Source: Solimonas aquatica
Lineage (GTDB): Bacteria; Pseudomonadota; Gammaproteobacteria; Nevskiales; Nevskiaceae
Assembly: GCF_900111015.1 (NCBI RefSeq)
Contig: NZ_FOFS01000001.1
Coordinates: 447,218-511,217 of the forward strand
DNA: 64,000 bases
Direction of reading: 5' to 3'
Shown here: positions 7,452 to 51,304 of the stretch, one piece after another
Numbering within the stretch: the first letter of the stretch is position 1
How the letters are laid out: each line of letters starts with the position of its first letter
The notes under the pieces: generated by a model
Databases searched by the model: none
Seen by the model: the letters and a program-made list of their open reading frames with translations, nothing else
What the model was told of the DNA's origin: nothing
Translations under genes and position numbers: made by a program

Positions 7452-8817
<1,366 letters not shown>

Positions 8818-8933
8818 GAAACATCGTGCGGTTTCGCAGCACTGGACTGCGCTCGCGCACGGTTTCCCCTCATGACGCGGCGCGGGCCGCGCTGCTAACT
8901 TGGCCGCGCCCCGTCCCCGCTTGAAACCCGACG

Positions 8934-10223
8934 ATGAACAAAGTGCTGCTTCTGCTCCTGCTGATCTGCGCGGCACCGGCGCACGCGGCGGGACTCTCCG
9001 CCCAGGAGCGGCGCATCGCCGCCGCCGTACAGGCGCACCAGGCCGAGCATCTGCTGCTGCTCGAACAGCTGGTGAACATCAACAGCGGCACGCTCAATCC
9101 GGCGGGGGTGAGGCAGGTCGCGGAGTTGCTGCGTCCGCGCTTCGAAGCCCTGGGCATGCGCGTGCGCTGGCTGCCGATGGACCCGGTCGGCCGCGCCGGT
9201 CATCTGCTGGCCGAGCAGCGCGGCGGCCGGGGCGCGCGTCTGCTACTGATCGCGCATCTGGACACGGTGTTCGAAGCCGACAGTCCCTTCCAGCGCTACC
9301 AGCGCGAGGGCGACACTGCCGTCGGGCCCGGCGTCAACGACATCAAGGGCGGCATCGTGGTGATACTCGCGGCCCTGCAGGCCCTGCATGAGGCCGGCGC
9401 GCTGTCGCGCAGCAACATCACGGTGTTCCTGAGCGGTGACGAGGAGCGGCCCGGCCAGCCGCTGGCGATCGCGCGCCGCGATCTGCTCGCCGCCGGCGCC
9501 GCCAGCGACATCGCCCTGGACTTCGAAGCCATGTATCGCGAACAGAACCAGGACACCCTGCATCTGGGCCGGCGCGGCTCGCTGAGCTGGAAGCTCTGGG
9601 CCAGCGGCGATTCGGGGCACTCCGCCGGCGTGGGACGCGGCGCGGGCTACGGGGCGGTCTACGAGCTGGTCCGCATCATCGACGCCTTCCGCACCCAGCT
9701 GCCCGAGCCCGATCTGAGCTACAACGCTGCACTGATTGCCGGCGGCAGCAGCCTGCAGCTCGATGCGCAGGGCGTGAACGCCAATGCCAGCGGCAAGCCC
9801 AACATCATCGCCGCGCAGGCCTATGCCACGGGCGATCTGCGCGCGCTGTCGCCGGAGCAGGTGGCACGGGTGCAGGCGCGGATGCGCGGCATCGTCGCGC
9901 AGCATCTGGACCGCACGCAGGCGCGCATCGAGTTCGACGAAGCCTACCCGCCCATGGCACCCGGCGCCGGCAGTGCCGCGCTGTTCGAACAGATGCAGCG
10001 CATCAACCGCGACCTGGGCCTGGGCGAGCTGCGCCTGGGTGATCCGGCCAATCGCGGCGCCGGTGATATTTCCTTCGTGGGCCAGCTGCCGGGCCTGGTG
10101 GGCATGGGTCTGGCCGGCGGCGGCGCCCATGCCGTGGGCGAATACGCCGATCTGCGCAGCCTGGTGCCGCAGGCGCAGCGCGCGGCGCTGCTGATGCTCA
10201 GACTCTCCAGGCCGCACCCATGA
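8934..10223 (+). CDS. Secreted M20-family metallopeptidase (carboxypeptidase G2-like)
   Basis: A 429-residue zinc peptidase with an N-terminal signal peptide (about residues 1-18, ending APAHA), so probably periplasmic or secreted. M20 di-zinc motifs are present: H108-L-D110 (IAHLDTV), D136 in GVNDIKGG, the catalytic/ligand acidic pair in SGDEERPG (170-171), DFEAM (196-200) and a C-terminal GGAHAVGEY histidine. A dimerisation lid domain lies at about 210-330. This layout matches glutamate carboxypeptidase-like exopeptidases; the substrate is unknown. It is the only plus-strand gene between eno and kdsA, two genes usually adjacent to each other, so it looks like an insertion. Confidence 0.88.
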   Translation: MNKVLLLLLLICAAPAHAAGLSAQERRIAAAVQAHQAEHLLLLEQLVNINSGTLNPAGVRQVAELLRPRFEALGMRVRWLPMDPVGRAGHLLAEQRGGRGARLLLIAHLDTVFEADSPFQRYQREGDTAVGPGVNDIKGGIVVILAALQALHEAGALSRSNITVFLSGDEERPGQPLAIARRDLLAAGAASDIALDFEAMYREQNQDTLHLGRRGSLSWKLWASGDSGHSAGVGRGAGYGAVYELVRIIDAFRTQLPEPDLSYNAALIAGGSSLQLDAQGVNANASGKPNIIAAQAYATGDLRALSPEQVARVQARMRGIVAQHLDRTQARIEFDEAYPPMAPGAGSAALFEQMQRINRDLGLGELRLGDPANRGAGDISFVGQLPGLVGMGLAGGGAHAVGEYADLRSLVPQAQRAALLMLRLSRPHP

Positions 10224-10225
10224 AA

Positions 10226-10245
10226 AACGCCGCGATTGCGGCGTT
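10226..10245. terminator. Bidirectional terminator between M20 peptidase and kdsA
   Basis: AACGCCGC (10226-10233), a 4-base loop and GCGGCGTT (10238-10245) form an 8-bp stem. It is preceded by AAAA-type bases and followed by CTTC, and it lies between the convergent stop codons. Confidence 0.7.
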
Positions 10246-10256
10246 CTTCATCCCAC

Positions 10257-12796
<2,540 letters not shown>

Positions 12797-44664: not shown

Positions 44665-44740
<76 letters not shown>

Positions 44741-44882: not shown

Positions 44883-46352
44883 TCAGGACTGGATTTCCAG
44901 TTCGAGTTCGCTTGCCATCAGCACACCCAAGCTGTACGAACCGCTGGCCTTGACCTTGTCACCGCTGGCAAGCCGGGCAAAGAAGGTGTCTGCGCTCACA
45001 GCCAGATCATTGAAGCGATAAACCGCACCACTGCCGTTCACCGCCACCCCGGCGATCACCAGGGCGCGATTGGCCGGGTCCACGGAACCCACGGCGGCCT
45101 TGATCAGCTGACGGTTATCGCTGCCGCGACGTTCGACACGCAGCGCCGTCAGCACGCCATCGCTCTGCACCAGACCCAGCTCGACAAAATCATTGACGGA
45201 GAGATTGGCGAAGTTGAAGGTCTTGAGCCGGTCGCGCGAGTCGCGATACACCGTGCTGTCGGCAACGAACACCGTCACACCCAGAACCTGAAAGCTGCGC
45301 GTTGCCGAGTCGATGGCGGTGATGACGGCCTGCGCCTGTGCCTGCACCGCCCCGCTGGCGTTGCCGCCGGCGCCGGCGTCGCCACCGGCTCGCCCCTGCC
45401 GGCGACTGCCCGGCTTGAATTCGATTTTGCTGGCGGCCAGTGAGCCATCGGTCTGCAGCTGCCCCTTGGCTTCCACCCGCGCCCCATCGACCAGATCGCT
45501 GGCCGTGCCATCTTCGTAGACGGTGCTGCCGCTCACGCTCACCGCAGTCGCACCGATCTTGAAGCTGCCGGCGCCGGCCACCAGCTCGCTGATCAGTCCC
45601 TCGACTTCCGCCAGCGTGCCGCTGGCAACCGTCGACAGATGATCCTCGGGCGAGATCCTGGCAGCCACCAGCACACCGCCGCTGTTCAACGCGCCCGCCA
45701 CTTCCACATAGGCACCATCGGCGGGCAGGTAGCCGACCGGCGACAGCAGCGCTGTGCTGTAATCCACCAGCTGCGTGCCGACCAGGAAGGTCTTGGCCAC
45801 CATGTCCAGCGACGCGACCAGGCCCTTGACCTCCAGCTCGCTGCGCACCGCTTCCTTCTGGATGTAGCTGGCCACGATGCTGCCATCATCGGCGCGACTG
45901 CCGCTGAGTTCGATGAAGTCGCCCACAGCCAGCTCCGACAGACCGCTGACCCCGTCAAAAACCGTCGCCGCATCGACCACGATGGTCTGCCCCAGCGCGC
46001 TCAACTGGTTGTTGCCGGGATCGATGGCGGTGATGCGGCCATGCAGCTCGGCTTCGTAACTGACTTCATCGGCGCTGCGCGAACCATCGTCGTGAACGCG
46101 GCCCTTGACCAGCACGCGCTGACCGACGCTGAGTTCGCCCTGGCTGTGCCCGCTCTTGCCGTCAATGGAAAACTGCGCCTGGCTGGTTTCATAGCGCACG
46201 CCATCAATGATCACGCTGCCAAAGCCGGTGATCGTGCCGTAGCTCGCGACCGGGGTGCCGCTGGCCGCCGCCGCCGAGCCATTGGAGGAACCGCCGCCGC
46301 AGGCCGTCAGCAGCAGGCTGGCCAGAACGCCGACACAAAGTATTTTTTTCAC
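44883..46352 (-). CDS. DUF5666-repeat lipoprotein
   Basis: A 489-residue lipoprotein (lipobox LLTAC, Cys18, then a Gly/Ser linker). It is built of about six repeated beta-domains of the DUF5666 type. Each reads roughly G-x-I-T-x-I-D ... N-x-F-x-V-x-G-x-x-V-x-V-D-x-x-T-x-x, followed by L-x-V-G-D-x-V-x-V-x-G. Examples are GRITAIDPGNNQLSALGQTI and GLVASLDMVAKTFLVGTQLV. OB-like small barrels are likely; no catalytic residues are visible. A basic Gly/Ala stretch near residues 315-340 separates the last repeats. The start is GTG at 46352 with AAGGAG seven bases upstream. An ECF-type promoter shared with the sigma operon lies at 46528-46552, so it is a probable regulon member. Confidence 0.85.
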   Translation of the reverse strand: MKKILCVGVLASLLLTACGGGSSNGSAAAASGTPVASYGTITGFGSVIIDGVRYETSQAQFSIDGKSGHSQGELSVGQRVLVKGRVHDDGSRSADEVSYEAELHGRITAIDPGNNQLSALGQTIVVDAATVFDGVSGLSELAVGDFIELSGSRADDGSIVASYIQKEAVRSELEVKGLVASLDMVAKTFLVGTQLVDYSTALLSPVGYLPADGAYVEVAGALNSGGVLVAARISPEDHLSTVASGTLAEVEGLISELVAGAGSFKIGATAVSVSGSTVYEDGTASDLVDGARVEAKGQLQTDGSLAASKIEFKPGSRRQGRAGGDAGAGGNASGAVQAQAQAVITAIDSATRSFQVLGVTVFVADSTVYRDSRDRLKTFNFANLSVNDFVELGLVQSDGVLTALRVERRGSDNRQLIKAAVGSVDPANRALVIAGVAVNGSGAVYRFNDLAVSADTFFARLASGDKVKASGSYSLGVLMASELELEIQS

Positions 46353-46667
46353 CGCGAGCTCCTTGAATTTTTTTGGGGGAATGGGCGCTGCATGTCGTCG
46401 CTCCCGACGGCGACGCCAGCAACGCCCTGCGATACCCCGCAAACATCCGCTGCTGCGCCGGCGTCGGCTGACGCCGGCAAGGCGAGCCGGTCTTTGCGCT
46501 TTGGATGGGGCTGTCGCATGCTCAAAAAACGATTCGGCCAGCGCTTTATTCCCGGCCGCTTCATTTTTTGTGTTGCGCGACAGGGCGAACCGGGACCCGC
46601 AGGCCATCAGCGCGGCGTCAGCGGCTTGCGCACACAGGCTTCGCGATCAGGACCAAGGGAGATTGCA
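46353..46667. other. Divergent control region between the DUF5666 and beta-barrel genes
   Basis: A 315-base gap. It holds the ECF-type promoter for the leftward gene (46528-46552) and, in that gene's leader, a perfect 9-bp hairpin GCCGGCGTC-GGCT-GACGCCGGC (46457-46478). The ribosome binding sites of both genes are also here (AAGGAG leftward; AAGGGAG at about 46655-46661 rightward). No convincing promoter was seen for the rightward gene. Confidence 0.5.
46528..46552 (-). promoter_or_regulatory. ECF-type promoter of the DUF5666 gene
   Basis: Minus strand: GGAATAAA (46552-46545), nine bases, GAATCGTT (46535-46528). The same two blocks with a ten-base gap precede the ECF sigma gene. The -35-like GGAAT and -10-like CGTT are typical of ECF promoters. 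It would give a leader of about 170 nt. Confidence 0.65.
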
Positions 46668-47534
46668 ATGACGATGCATCGCGCCGCTGGCCGCCTCGGC
46701 TCGGCGCTCTGGCTGCTCATGGCAGCGCTTCACGCAGCGCAGGCCCCGGCGGCCGACAGCCTGCTGCTGTCATCGGGCACCGAGTACTCCCGTGGCCAGT
46801 ACGGCGGCGACACCCAGACCACCGTGCTCTCCGTGCCCGTCTCCGCGCGTCTGCGCTGGCACGATTGGGCGCTGCGCCTGTCCGTGCCCTATGTGCGCAT
46901 CCATGGCCCGGCCGACGTGACCGTGCTGCTGGACGACGATGGCGGCTCCGATAGCGGCAGCTCCGGCAGTAACAGTGGCAGCGGCAGTAGTGGCAGTGAC
47001 GGCAGCGACGATGGCGCCACCACGGTCAGCTCCCCGAACCGCAAGGTCGCGGGCCTGGGCGATATCACCCTGTCGCTGAGCCATTCATTCCCGCAGCTCG
47101 GCGGCTCACCGTTCTATCTCGATCTGATCGGCCGTGTGAAATTCGCCAGCGGCCGGCAATCCGAAGGCCTGGGCACCGGCACCACGGACTACAGCGCCGG
47201 CGGTGAACTGGGCTGGAGCGGCGCCGGCGGTGGTTTGTACGCAGCGGGTGCGCGTCGTTTCGTCGGCAGCACGGCCACACTCCAGCGCGTCGATGCCTGG
47301 CAGTGGAGCGGCGGCGGCTGGCTGTATCTGGGCACCATGGCCGAACTCGGCGCCAGCTACAGCCATCGTCAGGCCACGGTCGCCACCGGCACCGACAGCC
47401 GCATGCTGGAGACCACGCTCGCCCTGCTGTTCGGCGCGAGCTGGCGCCTGAACCTGTATCTGAACCGCGGCCTTTCGGACGGCGCAGCTGATCTCGGCGG
47501 CGGCCTGGGACTGTCCTGGCAGTGTCCGCTCTGA
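46668..47534 (+). CDS. Small outer-membrane beta-barrel protein with acidic Ser/Gly insert
   Basis: A 288-residue protein with signal peptide (about 1-29, ending AAQAPAA). After it come alternating amphipathic strands typical of a transmembrane beta-barrel (TTVLSVPVSARLRWHDWALRLSVPYVRI; DITLSLSHSF; YLDLIGRVKF; ELGASYSHRQATV). The C-terminal strand is GGGLGLSWQCPL. Between strands at about 88-123 lies a low-complexity Asp/Gly/Ser insert (DDDGGSDSGSSGSNSG...), probably an exposed loop. ATG at 46668 has AAGGGAG seven bases upstream; a second ATG lies two codons on. Porin/transporter-like role is possible. It is adjacent to, and convergent with, the anti-sigma/sigma operon. Confidence 0.72.
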   Translation: MTMHRAAGRLGSALWLLMAALHAAQAPAADSLLLSSGTEYSRGQYGGDTQTTVLSVPVSARLRWHDWALRLSVPYVRIHGPADVTVLLDDDGGSDSGSSGSNSGSGSSGSDGSDDGATTVSSPNRKVAGLGDITLSLSHSFPQLGGSPFYLDLIGRVKFASGRQSEGLGTGTTDYSAGGELGWSGAGGGLYAAGARRFVGSTATLQRVDAWQWSGGGWLYLGTMAELGASYSHRQATVATGTDSRMLETTLALLFGASWRLNLYLNRGLSDGAADLGGGLGLSWQCPL

Positions 47535-47559
47535 TGCGCCCGCCCGACGCGGCGGTCCA

Positions 47560-48261
47560 TCACTTCACCGGCCAGCCCTGCGCGATCAGGCTGCGTTCCG
47601 CCGCAGCCTCCAGCGTCGGCGCCTGGCCCAGGCGATTCATCTCGGCATCGAGTCCGCCGTCGCCGCCGGCGGCACGAAAGTCGAGCGCATCTGCGGCGCC
47701 GCGCGCCTGCGCCAGAATCTGCCAGCGCCCGTCCTGACGGCAGGCCAGACCTTCCAGTGTCCCCGACTTGCCGCTCTGCTCGAACATGCGGCACCAGCGG
47801 CCATCGTCGGCACGAAAGCTCAGTATCGGACGCGTCCGCACCCCGGCATCGTCACGCTGCTGGCCGCTGGGCAGCTGTTCGAGAGCCAGCTGCAAGGACT
47901 CGGCAGGGGACTTCAGGCGCAGCGACAGCAGACCGCCCAACACCGCCAGCGCGAGGCTGGCAGCCAGCGCCCAACGCAAGCCGGCGCGATGGCGGCGAGG
48001 CCGCCGCTGCCCGCCGCCCGGTACCGCAGCCTCGTCCGGCGCGGCCAGCAGCAAGGCCGCCAGCGGGTCCGGCTTCTGCGTCTGCGGCAGGGCAAAAGCC
48101 TGCCTGAGCCGGGCATCGAGCGTGCGCAGACGTTCGACACGCGCCTGCGCCCCGGGATCGGCCTCCAGCGCCAGCCTGACCGCCTCACGCTGCGCCGCCG
48201 GCAGCTCACCATCCAGCCAGGCGCCCAGGATCTCGTCCGTCAGTTGCAGTTGTTCATTCAT
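47560..48261 (-). CDS. Membrane anti-sigma factor
   Basis: A 233-residue bitopic protein encoded directly after an ECF sigma gene. The N-terminal cytosolic domain (about 1-60, LTDEILGAWLDGELPAAQREAVRLALEADPGAQARVERLR) has the anti-sigma helical layout without the zinc HxxxCxxC motif. One membrane helix lies at about 94-113. The periplasmic domain contains two cysteines (DGRWCRMFE and GLACRQDGRW) that could form a disulfide. The ATG at 48261 follows AGGTGA and gives the likely start; in-frame GTGs at 48270 and 48264 are alternatives. It is expected to hold the sigma factor inactive until its periplasmic part is cut or altered. Confidence 0.88.
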   Translation of the reverse strand: MNEQLQLTDEILGAWLDGELPAAQREAVRLALEADPGAQARVERLRTLDARLRQAFALPQTQKPDPLAALLLAAPDEAAVPGGGQRRPRRHRAGLRWALAASLALAVLGGLLSLRLKSPAESLQLALEQLPSGQQRDDAGVRTRPILSFRADDGRWCRMFEQSGKSGTLEGLACRQDGRWQILAQARGAADALDFRAAGGDGGLDAEMNRLGQAPTLEAAAERSLIAQGWPVK

Positions 48262-48270
48262 CACCGTCAC

Positions 48271-48786
48271 CTATGCGCGTGAGGATGCATTCCCGCCGGA
48301 ATGCGTCGCGCCATCCAGACGCTCGGCCAGGCGGGCACGGGCCCGCGCGAGCCGGCTCATCACCGTGCCGATGGGAACCTCCAGAAACTCGGCGGCCTGC
48401 TGATACGACATGCCATCGAGCACCACCAGATTCAGCACCACTCTTTGTTCCTCGGGCAAGCTGCGCATCGCCAGCCTCAGTTCCTGCCATTGCAGACTCT
48501 GGACGTGCGAGTCGCGGCCATCCTCACCCACCAGTTCATCCGTGTCATCGAGCGACTCGGCCCTGCGCCGGTGCGCACGCAACTCATCGCGCCACAGGTT
48601 CTGGATGATGCGGTACATCCAGCTGTCCAGCGCCGAACCCGGCGTCCACTGCGCCGCGTGCCGCAGCGCCCGCTCCACTGCCGCCTGCACCAGATCATCG
48701 GCCTCGTGCTCCGCCTGACTCACGGTCAGCGCAAAACGTCGCAGGCGTGGCAACAGGGCCAGCAACTGGCGCTTGAATTCATCCAT
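48271..48786 (-). CDS. ECF-family RNA polymerase sigma factor
   Basis: A 171-residue group 4 sigma factor. Region 2 is at about 20-85 (AEHEADDLVQAAVERALRHAAQWTPGSALDSWMYRIIQNLWRDELRAHRRR). A short acidic linker follows (ESLDDTDELVGEDGRD). Region 4 is at about 105-160 with LPEEQRVVLNLVVLDGMSYQQAAEFLEVPIGTVMSRLARAR. No extra C-terminal sensor domain is present. It is followed after 9 bases by the anti-sigma ATG, and preceded by an ECF-type promoter with the same sequence blocks as that of the DUF5666 gene, implying autoregulation. Divergent from the S8 protease gene. Confidence 0.93.
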   Translation of the reverse strand: MDEFKRQLLALLPRLRRFALTVSQAEHEADDLVQAAVERALRHAAQWTPGSALDSWMYRIIQNLWRDELRAHRRRAESLDDTDELVGEDGRDSHVQSLQWQELRLAMRSLPEEQRVVLNLVVLDGMSYQQAAEFLEVPIGTVMSRLARARARLAERLDGATHSGGNASSRA

Positions 48787-48814
48787 GCCTGCAATCTGCT
48801 CATGCTGGTGATAT

Positions 48815-48840
48815 AACGATTCAGACCCTCAGTTTATTCC
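48815..48840 (-). promoter_or_regulatory. ECF-type promoter of the sigma/anti-sigma operon
   Basis: Minus strand: GGAATAAA (48840-48833), ten bases, GAATCGTT (48822-48815), ending about 29 bases before the sigma ATG. It shares both 8-base blocks with the element at 46528-46552. GGAAT to CGTT spacing is 17 bp here and 16 bp there. Confidence 0.7.
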
Positions 48841-48872
48841 AGTCCCACGATGCTTCTTTCATCCGCCGCATC

Positions 48873-50384
48873 ATGAGCCGGCATCGTCGTCCCCCCTTCA
48901 GCAGTCTGCTGCTGGCCTGCGCCCTGGCCAGCGCGCTGCTGCAAGCCGCAGCGGTACAGGCCAGGGACGACGCCGATGGCGGCCGCGAGTCGCAGGCCCG
49001 CGAGCGAGGCGATGCCGGGCGCGGCGGTGAACATGCAGTCCGTGACAGTGCGCGCCAGGAGCAGAACCGCAGCGAGAGTCGCGGCGAAAGACATGGTGAT
49101 GCCCTCAGGCCGGAGACCAGGACAGCGCAGGACGCCGTCAAGGCACAGGCCGATGCGCAGAAGGACGCCCGCAAACTCGCCGAGGACAGCGCCAGGGAGC
49201 AGGCCAAGGCGGCTGAGGATGCGGACAAGGAACAGGGCAAGGACGAACACAACGAACGCAAGGAAGCGGTGCCGCGCAGCGAGGGCGCGCTGCACGCGCT
49301 GGAACGACTGCACATCGAACGCGATGCGCAGGGGCTGGAGCGCGTGCAGGGCGAGGTGCTGGTGGTCGGCGGCGCGGAACTCGCCGGTCGTGTTCGCGAC
49401 GCCGGCTACCGGGTGCTCGCCGAGCAGAGACTCGCCGAGCGTGAGGAGCTGATGTTGCGCGTGGCCCTGGCCAGCTCGCGGACGCTGGAGCAGACCCTGA
49501 CCGAGCTGCGCACGCTGCTGCCAGCGGCCTGGATCGCACCGAACCACATCTACCGACCTTCGGCGAGCACGCGCGCAGCGGCGCCGGCAACGGAGCGCGG
49601 CGACGCCAAGGCGATGCCGATCCCGGCGCGCGGCGCCGGCAACACCATCGGCCTGCTCGACACCGGCGCCGATCCTCGCAGCCCGCTGCTGACAGCGGCG
49701 CTGCAGCACATGCAGAGCTTCACACGCAACACTTACACAGCACGCGCCCACGGCACGCTGGTGGCGGAACTCGCGGCCTCACGCGGCGCGAGTCTGGCCG
49801 TCGCGGATGTCTTTGCTGCCGACGAGGATGATTTTCTGGTGGCGCCGGCGGACGCCATGGCCGCCGCGCTGTCCTGGCTGCTCGCCCAGCATGTGGCCGT
49901 GATCAACATCAGCATCGAAGGGCCGGACAACGCGATCATGGCCCTGATGATCCGCCGCGCCATCGCTGCGGGTGTAGTCGTCGTGGCGGCGGCAGGCAAC
50001 CGCGGGCCTGCGGCGGCGCCAGCGTATCCGGCGGCCTATCCCGACGTGATCGCGGTCACCGCCATCGACCGCGACGGGCAGGTCTACCGCCGGGCCAATC
50101 ATGGCAGCTACATCAGCTTCGCCGCGCCGGGTGTCAACATCGTCAGTGCCGGACATTCCTACGACGGCAAGCCGGTATCCGGCACCTCGTTCGCGGCGCC
50201 GCAGATTGCAGCCCTGGCCGCCGAACAGCTGCTGGTGCCGAGCAGCGACAGCCTGCCGGCTGCGACACGCGTGATGGCCCAGCTGCGTCGCCAGGCCCGC
50301 GATCTCGGTGTCGCAGGATTCGATCCCGTCTACGGCTGGGGCGTACCCGAAGCCGCGACCGCCGGCGCCGGCTCGTATCGCTGA
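48873..50384 (+). CDS. Secreted subtilisin-like serine protease (S8 family)
   Basis: A 503-residue exported protease with signal peptide at about 1-30. A highly charged Asp/Glu/Arg/Lys/Gln-rich segment covers about 31-133. A propeptide-like alpha/beta domain lies at about 138-230 (LERVQGEVLVVGGAELAGRVRDAGYRVL), followed by the catalytic domain. The triad is complete: D263 (LLDTGAD), H293 (ARAHGTLVAEL) and S439 (SGTSFAAPQIAAL), with oxyanion N376 (AAAGNRG). No C-terminal anchor or autotransporter domain is present. It is transcribed divergently from the ECF sigma operon with 86 bases between starts and could act on, or be controlled by, that sigma/anti-sigma pair. Confidence 0.92.
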   Translation: MSRHRRPPFSSLLLACALASALLQAAAVQARDDADGGRESQARERGDAGRGGEHAVRDSARQEQNRSESRGERHGDALRPETRTAQDAVKAQADAQKDARKLAEDSAREQAKAAEDADKEQGKDEHNERKEAVPRSEGALHALERLHIERDAQGLERVQGEVLVVGGAELAGRVRDAGYRVLAEQRLAEREELMLRVALASSRTLEQTLTELRTLLPAAWIAPNHIYRPSASTRAAAPATERGDAKAMPIPARGAGNTIGLLDTGADPRSPLLTAALQHMQSFTRNTYTARAHGTLVAELAASRGASLAVADVFAADEDDFLVAPADAMAAALSWLLAQHVAVINISIEGPDNAIMALMIRRAIAAGVVVVAAAGNRGPAAAPAYPAAYPDVIAVTAIDRDGQVYRRANHGSYISFAAPGVNIVSAGHSYDGKPVSGTSFAAPQIAALAAEQLLVPSSDSLPAATRVMAQLRRQARDLGVAGFDPVYGWGVPEAATAGAGSYR

Positions 50385-50395
50385 AGCGCGGCTGA

Positions 50396-51304
50396 TCAGG
50401 CCGCCGCCTTCAGCGCCTCACCGCCCAGCACCGCCTGCAGATCCTTGAGCAGCGCGGCCAGCTCGCCGGACATCAGCGCGAACTCGGCATCGAACTGTTC
50501 CTGGGCACTGAGCGTGCCGGCCTCTTCGCGCGCCTTTTCGATGTCCTCGAAGCGCAGCTTCTTGATCTCGAACTTGTCGGTGAGCAGAAAAGTCGCCCGC
50601 ACGTTCCAGCGCAGACCCAGGCGCGTCACCAGCTTGCCGCCGGCGATGTGCTGGCGGATTTCCGCGCCGTCGAGTGCATGGCGCAGGTAGCGGATGGTGG
50701 GCTTCACCGCATCCTTGCCGCTGAGCTCGCATTCCTGATCGATATCGAAAGTGCCCGGCGCCTGGCCGGCGGAGAGCCAGCCGGTCATCGCCATCGACGG
50801 CGACTGCGCCAGCTCCGGCAGTTCCAGATTCAGGCCCGGCACCGCGTCGCGCAGCATCTCCAGCAGTTCCTCGGCGCGCGCCGGCGAGGCCGCGTCCACC
50901 ACCAGCCAGCCGGAAGCCGGATCGAGCCAGGCGCGGGTGACGCGGCGCTTGGCGAAGGCGCGCGGCATCAGCTCGGCGGTGACCGCGTCCTTGATGTCGC
51001 GCAGCTGCTTGCGGCCAGGCTTGAAGCCCTGGCGCTGCTCCAGTTCCTGCGCACGTTGCTCCGTTTCCTGGCGCACCACGGCGGCGGGCAGGATTTTCTG
51101 CTCCACGCCCAGCGCGATCAGCATCTGCCGGCCCTGGCCGTAGACCAGCTGCTCGGTGCCGGGCACTTTCACCCAGCCCCGGCTCTGCGGATTGAGACCG
51201 ATGCAAGGCTGCAGCTGGCGCGGCGACAGGCGTTCTTCCAGAGCACCGGGGGCCAGCGTCCACTCGCCTGCCAGACGATAGGTCTGCAGATTCTTGAACC
51301 ACAT
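50396..51304 (-). CDS. rdgC: Recombination-associated protein RdgC
   Basis: Ring-shaped DNA-binding dimer that limits RecA-dependent recombination. The 302 aa product (E. coli about 303) begins MWFKNLQTYRL, the family N terminus. It has LSPRQLQPCIGLNPQSRGWVKV, FKPGRKQLRDIKDAVTAELMPRAF, DAASPARAEELLEMLRD and LRWNVRATFLLTDKFEIKKLRFEDI. The ATG at 51304 is chosen because it gives the conserved start; the longer frame to 51442 overlaps the RDD gene. Convergent with the S8 gene, with only 11 bases between stop codons. Confidence 0.96.
   Translation of the reverse strand: MWFKNLQTYRLAGEWTLAPGALEERLSPRQLQPCIGLNPQSRGWVKVPGTEQLVYGQGRQMLIALGVEQKILPAAVVRQETEQRAQELEQRQGFKPGRKQLRDIKDAVTAELMPRAFAKRRVTRAWLDPASGWLVVDAASPARAEELLEMLRDAVPGLNLELPELAQSPSMAMTGWLSAGQAPGTFDIDQECELSGKDAVKPTIRYLRHALDGAEIRQHIAGGKLVTRLGLRWNVRATFLLTDKFEIKKLRFEDIEKAREEAGTLSAQEQFDAEFALMSGELAALLKDLQAVLGGEALKAAA

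Follow-up and report, generated by a model that had tools for sequence, protein, structure and literature searches.

What kind of system is encoded by five adjacent genes at positions 44883-50384 of a 64,000-nucleotide stretch of the Solimonas aquatica genome (contig NZ_FOFS01000001.1, positions 447,218 to 511,217; hereafter the window), and does it have a described counterpart? The genes encode a lipoprotein built from DUF5666 repeats, a probable outer-membrane β-barrel, an anti-sigma factor, an extracytoplasmic function (ECF) sigma factor, and an exported S8 serine protease. An earlier interpretation (the sequence-only reading) had proposed this set as a self-contained regulon, with no known described system of exactly this composition. 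All five genes are confirmed to be present. They probably make up an envelope-stress switch of the ECF26 type, similar to RpoE6, whose regulon is local. Gene content, gene order, a promoter element, and a pair of periplasmic cysteines are conserved. The core, composed of the sigma factor, the anti-sigma factor, and the divergent S8 protease, is already known as the ECF26 RpoE6-EcfR6-SMa0142 arrangement of Sinorhizobium meliloti. The new part looks to be the output, namely a DUF5666 lipoprotein and a probable barrel that lie beside, and partly under, an ECF26 element. From this locus, DUF5666, a repeat domain whose function is not known, gains a testable regulator, and the RpoE6-type switch gains a defined envelope output together with a candidate sensor domain, recognizable by its shared pair of cysteines.

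Relation to the ECF26 group

The window sigma factor (171 aa) is composed of sigma regions 2 and 4 only, with PF04542 and PF08281 both over their Pfam cut-offs. Over the aligned parts, identity to the proteins of the RpoE6 locus is 43% for the sigma factor, 34% for the S8 protease, and 27% for the anti-sigma factor, and the core of the window may be read as an RpoE6-type ECF26 module. Three features of the group are matched: a GGAATA/GT-type element (from sequence only), an adjacent anti-sigma factor whose N-terminal anti-sigma domain is followed by one transmembrane segment and a periplasmic C-terminus, and a serine protease gene divergent from the sigma gene. The available passages of PMC6180224 give an ECF26 consensus of GGAATA at -35 and GT at -10, and state that the divergent orientation of rpoE6 and a serine protease gene is widely conserved in ECF26; the RpoE6-type locus has no defined role in these passages.

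A profile scan of 30 kb of the S. meliloti pSymA replicon recovered S8, sigma, and anti-sigma genes in the RpoE6-locus arrangement. The same 30 kb contains six GGAATA and two GGAACA pattern matches. Three of the six GGAATA matches are the promoters printed for SMa0142, ecfR6, and SMa0148 in the available part of PMC6180224 (Table 1), and the printed SMa0142 protease promoter fits the window element. Thus, for the core, the idea of a system without a described counterpart is not supported.

The two loci share a sigma/anti-sigma tandem, a divergent S8 gene, a paired-cysteine periplasmic domain, and GGAATA...CGT elements. They differ in that neither DUF5666 nor the barrel was detected by the profile scan of the 30-kb S. 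meliloti stretch. Furthermore, in S. meliloti the protease gene has a mapped element and rpoE6 does not, whereas in the window the sigma gene has the element and the protease gene does not. RpoE1 and RpoE4 of S. meliloti share the printed ECF26 group and -35 element; however, they have other outputs and another signal, and no divergent protease appears in the passages that describe them.

In a tree of sigma factors, the window protein groups with those of loci L116 and L118 (99/92), and the protein of L022 joins next (100/98). L117 is represented by only a fragment, L103 is unlabelled (short sequence), and RpoE1, RpoE3, and RpoE4 are not among its members.

A promoter-like element at two sites

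The sequence-only reading had noted a promoter-like element common to the sigma operon and the DUF5666 gene. This is borne out, and both sites recur in a genome of another genus (G018). The element before the sigma gene is GGAATAAA-N10-GAATCGTT (48840-48815, minus strand) and that before the DUF5666 gene is GGAATAAA-N9-GAATCGTT (46552-46528, minus strand), giving GGAATA-N14/15-TCGTT upstream of both. The strict pattern GGAATA-N14..17-TCGTT has three matches in the 4.43-Mb genome and one in the reversed control. Two of the three are the sigma and DUF5666 sites, while the third lies at C28:324765. The variant GGAATAA-N13..15-CGTT matches only the two module sites in the entire genome. G018 likewise has three strict matches (control one), two of which precede the sigma and DUF5666 orthologues. 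Since two of three genome matches (control one) fall in this locus and both sites recur in G018, the element is more than chance. Ten genomes of the same genus that lack the module have zero to five strict matches each.

The element was also compared across loci. Among 17 S8-linked loci whose upstream sequence was long enough, 13 have GGAATA-N14..16-CGT within 300 bases upstream of the sigma gene, as measured from its estimated start, whereas among 22 other ECF loci, drawn from the same search of the class, one does (Fisher p ~3.5e-6). The count omits L103 (contig ends), L105 (element, no visible S8), and the S. meliloti locus.

An mRNA starting from the element before the DUF5666 gene is predicted to carry a leader of about 175 nt ahead of the start codon (window 46352-46528).

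Conservation of the gene set

All five genes are found in the same order and orientation in G018 (locus L022), which belongs to the same family. Over the aligned parts, its sigma factor is 68% and its DUF5666 protein 44% identical to those of the window. Among 58 genomes of the family, own included, the sigma factor was detected at E 1e-45 or better in nine, and all nine loci have an adjacent S8 match. The expected co-occurrence of the five genes is found in part: of the 57 other family genomes, eight have the sigma factor, one of which (G018) has all five genes, and three have all but DUF5666. In these three (G431, G434, G435), the barrel gene is kept in a convergent orientation with the anti-sigma gene, and the gene divergent from the barrel encodes a small exported Arg-Asp-repeat protein in the place of DUF5666. 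The grouping in the sigma tree would fit an early DUF5666 gene that was later replaced in the genus of G431, although two gains may have occurred instead. The element is found before the barrel gene in L117 and L118 and before the Arg-Asp-repeat gene in L116 and L117.

Arg-Asp-rich exported proteins are encoded beside the barrel at L116:9757-10122, L117:4493-4927, and L118:9966-10379. The S8 protease of L022 has an Arg-Asp-rich linker that resembles the repeat proteins of L116-L118. TonB-dependent receptor genes flank the five-gene set of G018 on both sides (L022:3-2531 and 8338-10794), and the right-hand one is preceded by an imperfect GGAATA element (8306, plus strand).

The sigma factor is absent at E 1e-45 from all ten same-genus genomes, three of which have weaker ECF matches. 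At 1e-32, the sigma profile matches 84 of 369 genomes of the class, own included. Among the best 30 sigma loci (1.5 kb each side; that of G123 stops at a contig edge), S8 is divergent in the window and in five of the 29 others (G262, G364, G259, G152, G405), and the 29 others contain no barrel or DUF5666 match. The sigma-S8 arrangement was also found in a Hyphomicrobium assembly (L027), in L028, and on a Paracoccus plasmid.

The anti-sigma factor as a candidate sensor

The anti-sigma gene extends over 47560-48270 with a GTG start or 47560-48261 with an ATG start. The zf-HC2 and anti-sigma Pfam models match the protein below their cut-offs. A model calculated from four sequences (mean predicted local distance difference test score, pLDDT = 66.8) has a helical N-terminus, a transmembrane helix within a low-confidence stretch, and a periplasmic sheet (pLDDT ~88). 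The top three structural alignments of the N-terminus are RsiW, RslA, and ChrR (Z = 6.5, 6.2, and 4.4), although values below 8 may mean merely a common arrangement. Zinc anti-sigma (ZAS) factors have a zinc-site cysteine motif in the N-terminal domain. The window protein has no cysteine before its transmembrane segment, and the domain still aligns to these three proteins. A structure search with the periplasmic domain returned no convincing match, and a PDB sequence search with the anti-sigma profile returned nothing better than E 0.1.

In the periplasmic domain, the strand register puts Cys157 across from Cys174 in a predicted hairpin (156-164 / 167-176; pLDDT ~88). In all 20 anti-sigma factors of this group (from 18 S8-linked loci, L103, and L105), the periplasmic part has two cysteines within a similar motif, at a distance of 13 to 22 residues, and 0 of 21 comparators have two; comparator L094 has no anti-sigma match, and L076 is cut. 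We infer that the pair may form a disulfide and sense redox state.

Two tandem anti-sigma-like genes, both with paired cysteines, follow the Hyphomicrobium sigma gene (L027:7528-9104).

EcfF-OsrA of Bradyrhizobium japonicum, whose anti-sigma factor has two cysteines, was considered as a close relative and rejected. Cysteine C179 of this anti-sigma factor is reported to be needed for the peroxide response. The passages available from PMC8315932 place OsrA with the ECF16/NrsF anti-sigma factors, of which a Brucella member has six transmembrane helices, whereas the window anti-sigma factor has one transmembrane segment and a soluble β domain. Thus, the resemblance is one of analogy only.

Proposed mechanism

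For sigma/anti-sigma pairs of this kind, release of the sigma factor through periplasmic inactivation of the anti-sigma factor is established behaviour. In the window, the bitopic anti-sigma factor would hold the sigma factor at the inner membrane until a periplasmic signal, most likely read by the two-cysteine β domain, inactivates it. Once freed, the sigma factor would transcribe two units by means of the GGAATAA...CGTT element: the operon that encodes it and the DUF5666 gene, which would have a promoter of its own on the same strand. The S8 protease may be considered a fixed core partner, either in the signal path by cleavage of the anti-sigma factor or as a constant output, while the DUF5666 lipoprotein and the barrel would be an exchangeable envelope output. 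We infer the use of the element by the sigma factor, the release mechanism, the signal, and the protease substrate from the arrangement described. With respect to the self-contained regulon of the sequence-only reading, the in silico results support a small, mostly local regulon, with the sigma operon itself and the DUF5666 gene under sigma control; the barrel and protease genes of the window lack a strict element, although some relatives have one.

Several observations weigh against an RpoE6-like switch that acts through this element, to which the low Z scores of the anti-sigma N-terminus are added. In the available text of PMC6180224, rpoE6 itself has an RpoD/RpoH-like promoter, so autoregulation through the element is not universal, and the printed SMa0139 promoter misfits the pattern. 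In the tree, the sigma factors linked to S8 fall into more than one clade (six changes, at least three of them forced). The looser pattern GGAATA-N14..16-CGTT has five matches in the genome versus five in the reversed control, so this count by itself proves nothing; among the five, only the two module sites start with GGAATAA. Four of the 17 S8-linked loci (L023, L117, L121, L035) have no sigma element by script; in L117 one is present by eye, the start having been misjudged. Lastly, pattern scans of the window found no strict element upstream of S8 or the barrel, and in only five of 17 loci (L027, L028, L100, L101, L035) does an element precede S8.

The S8 protease: signal path or output

The S8 assignment is confirmed by Pfam (Peptidase_S8), and the window protein, a protease as predicted by sequence, contains LLDTGAD, AHGTLVA, and GTSFAAP motifs. 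Asp, His, and Ser are all present in 17 of 18 S8-linked loci, while the 18th (L028) runs off its contig. The L027 protein is without the usual oxyanion Asn. The nearest solved structures to the catalytic domain are subtilisins. Judged from the loci compared, S8 is the most constant partner of the sigma factor and would form part of a fixed core.

The chances are about even that S8 is purely an output, serving periplasmic or surface quality control with no part in sigma activation. SMa0142 is among the most prominent targets upon RpoE6 overexpression (log fold change 4.7; PMC6180224, Table 1, available part), and the five loci with an element before S8 point the same way; however, the other 12 of 17 have no strict S8 element. 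In addition, across alpha- and gammaproteobacteria (18 loci), S8 stays divergent from the sigma gene while the other outputs vary, and this constancy suggests that it is more closely tied to the sigma factor. In one form of such a tie, S8 would make the site-1 cut in the pathway of its own sigma factor, with the disulfide state of the anti-sigma factor gating cleavage and thereby turning periplasmic oxidation or thiol stress into sigma release with an exchangeable envelope output. We consider this specific route unlikely. A literature search, with most subscription papers beyond its coverage, returned no paper on subtilisin-like site-1 cleavage of anti-sigma factors.

A similar-looking exported protein is encoded after S8 in L100:3366-4160, L101:3537-4211, and L102:8143-8847; two of the three were scanned and had no Pfam match.

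The DUF5666 lipoprotein and the probable barrel as a proposed output

For the DUF5666 gene, GTG 46352 is the most likely start instead of 46607, giving 489 residues with an LLTAC lipobox (by eye). The protein scores 187.8 bits against the DUF5666 profile (PF18914; cut-off 27). About six repeats had been proposed; five stretches pass E 0.1 alone here and six do so in the G018 orthologue (Pfam). A PDB sequence search with the DUF5666 profile returned nothing better than E 0.1. The start codon of the barrel gene is ATG 46668. Its product has a signal peptide by eye and a pattern shared over 22 aligned sequences; no Pfam or NCBIfam model matches it, and a single-sequence model was unusable (pLDDT = 35). 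Of the small outer-membrane barrel first proposed, the gene and the acidic Ser/Gly loop stand, and the outer-membrane location is suggested by the sequence pattern.

The barrel family was found in 26 of the 369 class genomes, own included. A DUF5666 match is present somewhere in 16 of the other 25 genomes and absent from nine. The match lies within about 1 kb of the barrel in five (G114, G206, G298, G317, G380), at 3.6 kb in G352, and elsewhere in ten. In four of these five, and thus in 4 of the 25 barrel genomes, a DUF6502 gene precedes DUF5666 (G114, G206, G298, G317). These clusters of other Gammaproteobacteria are the same as the window in having the barrel family beside a DUF5666 gene; they differ in having DUF6502 as the neighbour in place of the ECF26 sigma factor. 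No DUF6502 match was found in G000 and G018. The comparison suggests that one envelope protein pair may pass between partners, either DUF6502 or an ECF26 sigma factor, and the pair may be read as having come under ECF26 control in this lineage.

It is improbable that the DUF5666-barrel pair lies beside a standard ECF26 locus only by chance and that the element before DUF5666 is coincidental. This would account for the 25 other barrel genomes, five of them with an adjacent DUF5666 gene, in which no sigma match was found in the flanks (up to 1.5 kb), and it would agree with the rearranged boundary described below and with the background count of the looser pattern. However, a second genus has the same order of five genes and both elements, and in three more genomes the barrel lies beside the anti-sigma gene with elements before the barrel or its divergent neighbour. 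Moreover, in G152, from a different family, the element is also present at the gene after the anti-sigma gene, whose product is a lipoprotein (lipobox by eye) that contains DUF4382 and matches DUF5666 below threshold (19.8 bits, cut-off 27).

A signal of sulfite or a related sulfur compound, as for RpoE1 and RpoE4, which are ECF26 members that respond to sulfite-generating compounds (PMC3511301, available passages), is also improbable, with no sulfite-oxidation gene seen among the window neighbours by eye, although no search was aimed at one.

The DUF6502-DUF5666-barrel row occurs at G114:C25:64622-67589, G206:C29:10777-13998, G298:C10:28465-31286, and G317:C66:3739-6778, across three gammaproteobacterial families. 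In others of the 25 barrel genomes, DUF6502 and DUF5666 are neighbours and the barrel is not part of the cluster. Contig C7 of the S. aquatica genome contains a second gene for a DUF5666-repeat lipoprotein (L021:4932-6602), beside thioesterase-like and phosphotransferase-like genes (by eye); no sigma match was found in 12 kb around it, and it has no GGAAT...CGT[TC] element. DUF5666 relatives are found on plasmids in 10 records (Thermus, Paraburkholderia, Variovorax); three of these regions have no annotated sigma gene in their gene tables, which are incomplete, and the barrel protein has no plasmid match. A literature search for DUF5666 with a sigma factor gave only unrelated work and nothing that ties DUF5666 to ECF26, most subscription papers being beyond its coverage.

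Genomic setting

The features of the locus are collected in Table 1.

Table 1. Features of the five-gene locus in window coordinates.
Feature	Position	Strand	Remarks
DUF5666-repeat lipoprotein gene, 489 aa	44883..46352	-	LLTAC lipobox (by eye); five stretches of DUF5666
ECF26-like promoter element GGAATAAAGCGCTGGCCGAATCGTT, upstream of the DUF5666 gene	46528..46552	-	like element at the orthologue in L022
Exported protein, probable outer-membrane β-barrel, 288 aa, acidic Ser/Gly loop	46668..47534	+	convergent with the anti-sigma gene; sequence pattern
Anti-sigma factor: RsiW-like cytoplasmic domain, one transmembrane segment, periplasmic β domain with Cys157/Cys174	47560..48261	-	
ECF sigma factor, 171 aa, RpoE6-like (ECF26 type)	48271..48786	-	Pfam, tree, identity to RpoE6
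ECF26-like promoter element GGAATAAACTGAGGGTCTGAATCGTT, upstream of the sigma gene	48815..48840	-	pattern scans
Exported S8 (subtilisin-type) serine protease, 503 aa, charged linker, presumed pro-domain conserved, Asp/His/Ser intact	48873..50384	+	divergent from the sigma gene

The guanine plus cytosine content of the module (0.678) is close to that of the window (0.666), so composition gives no hint of recent transfer. No clean empty site could be demonstrated by comparing the flanks with those of relatives. On the DUF5666 side of the set there is a tRNA-Thr gene at 44665-44740, and the gene at the left flank of the window presumably encodes an alcohol dehydrogenase. In four same-genus genomes the corresponding gene was found, each time at another location. 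On the other side, the S8 gene is adjoined by a gene starting at 50396, which we take to be rdgC. An rdgC-like gene was found in 12 of 12 relatives. Since it is near a tRNA-Glu gene in four same-genus regions (L096-L099) and beside the module here, the module lies at a rearranged boundary.

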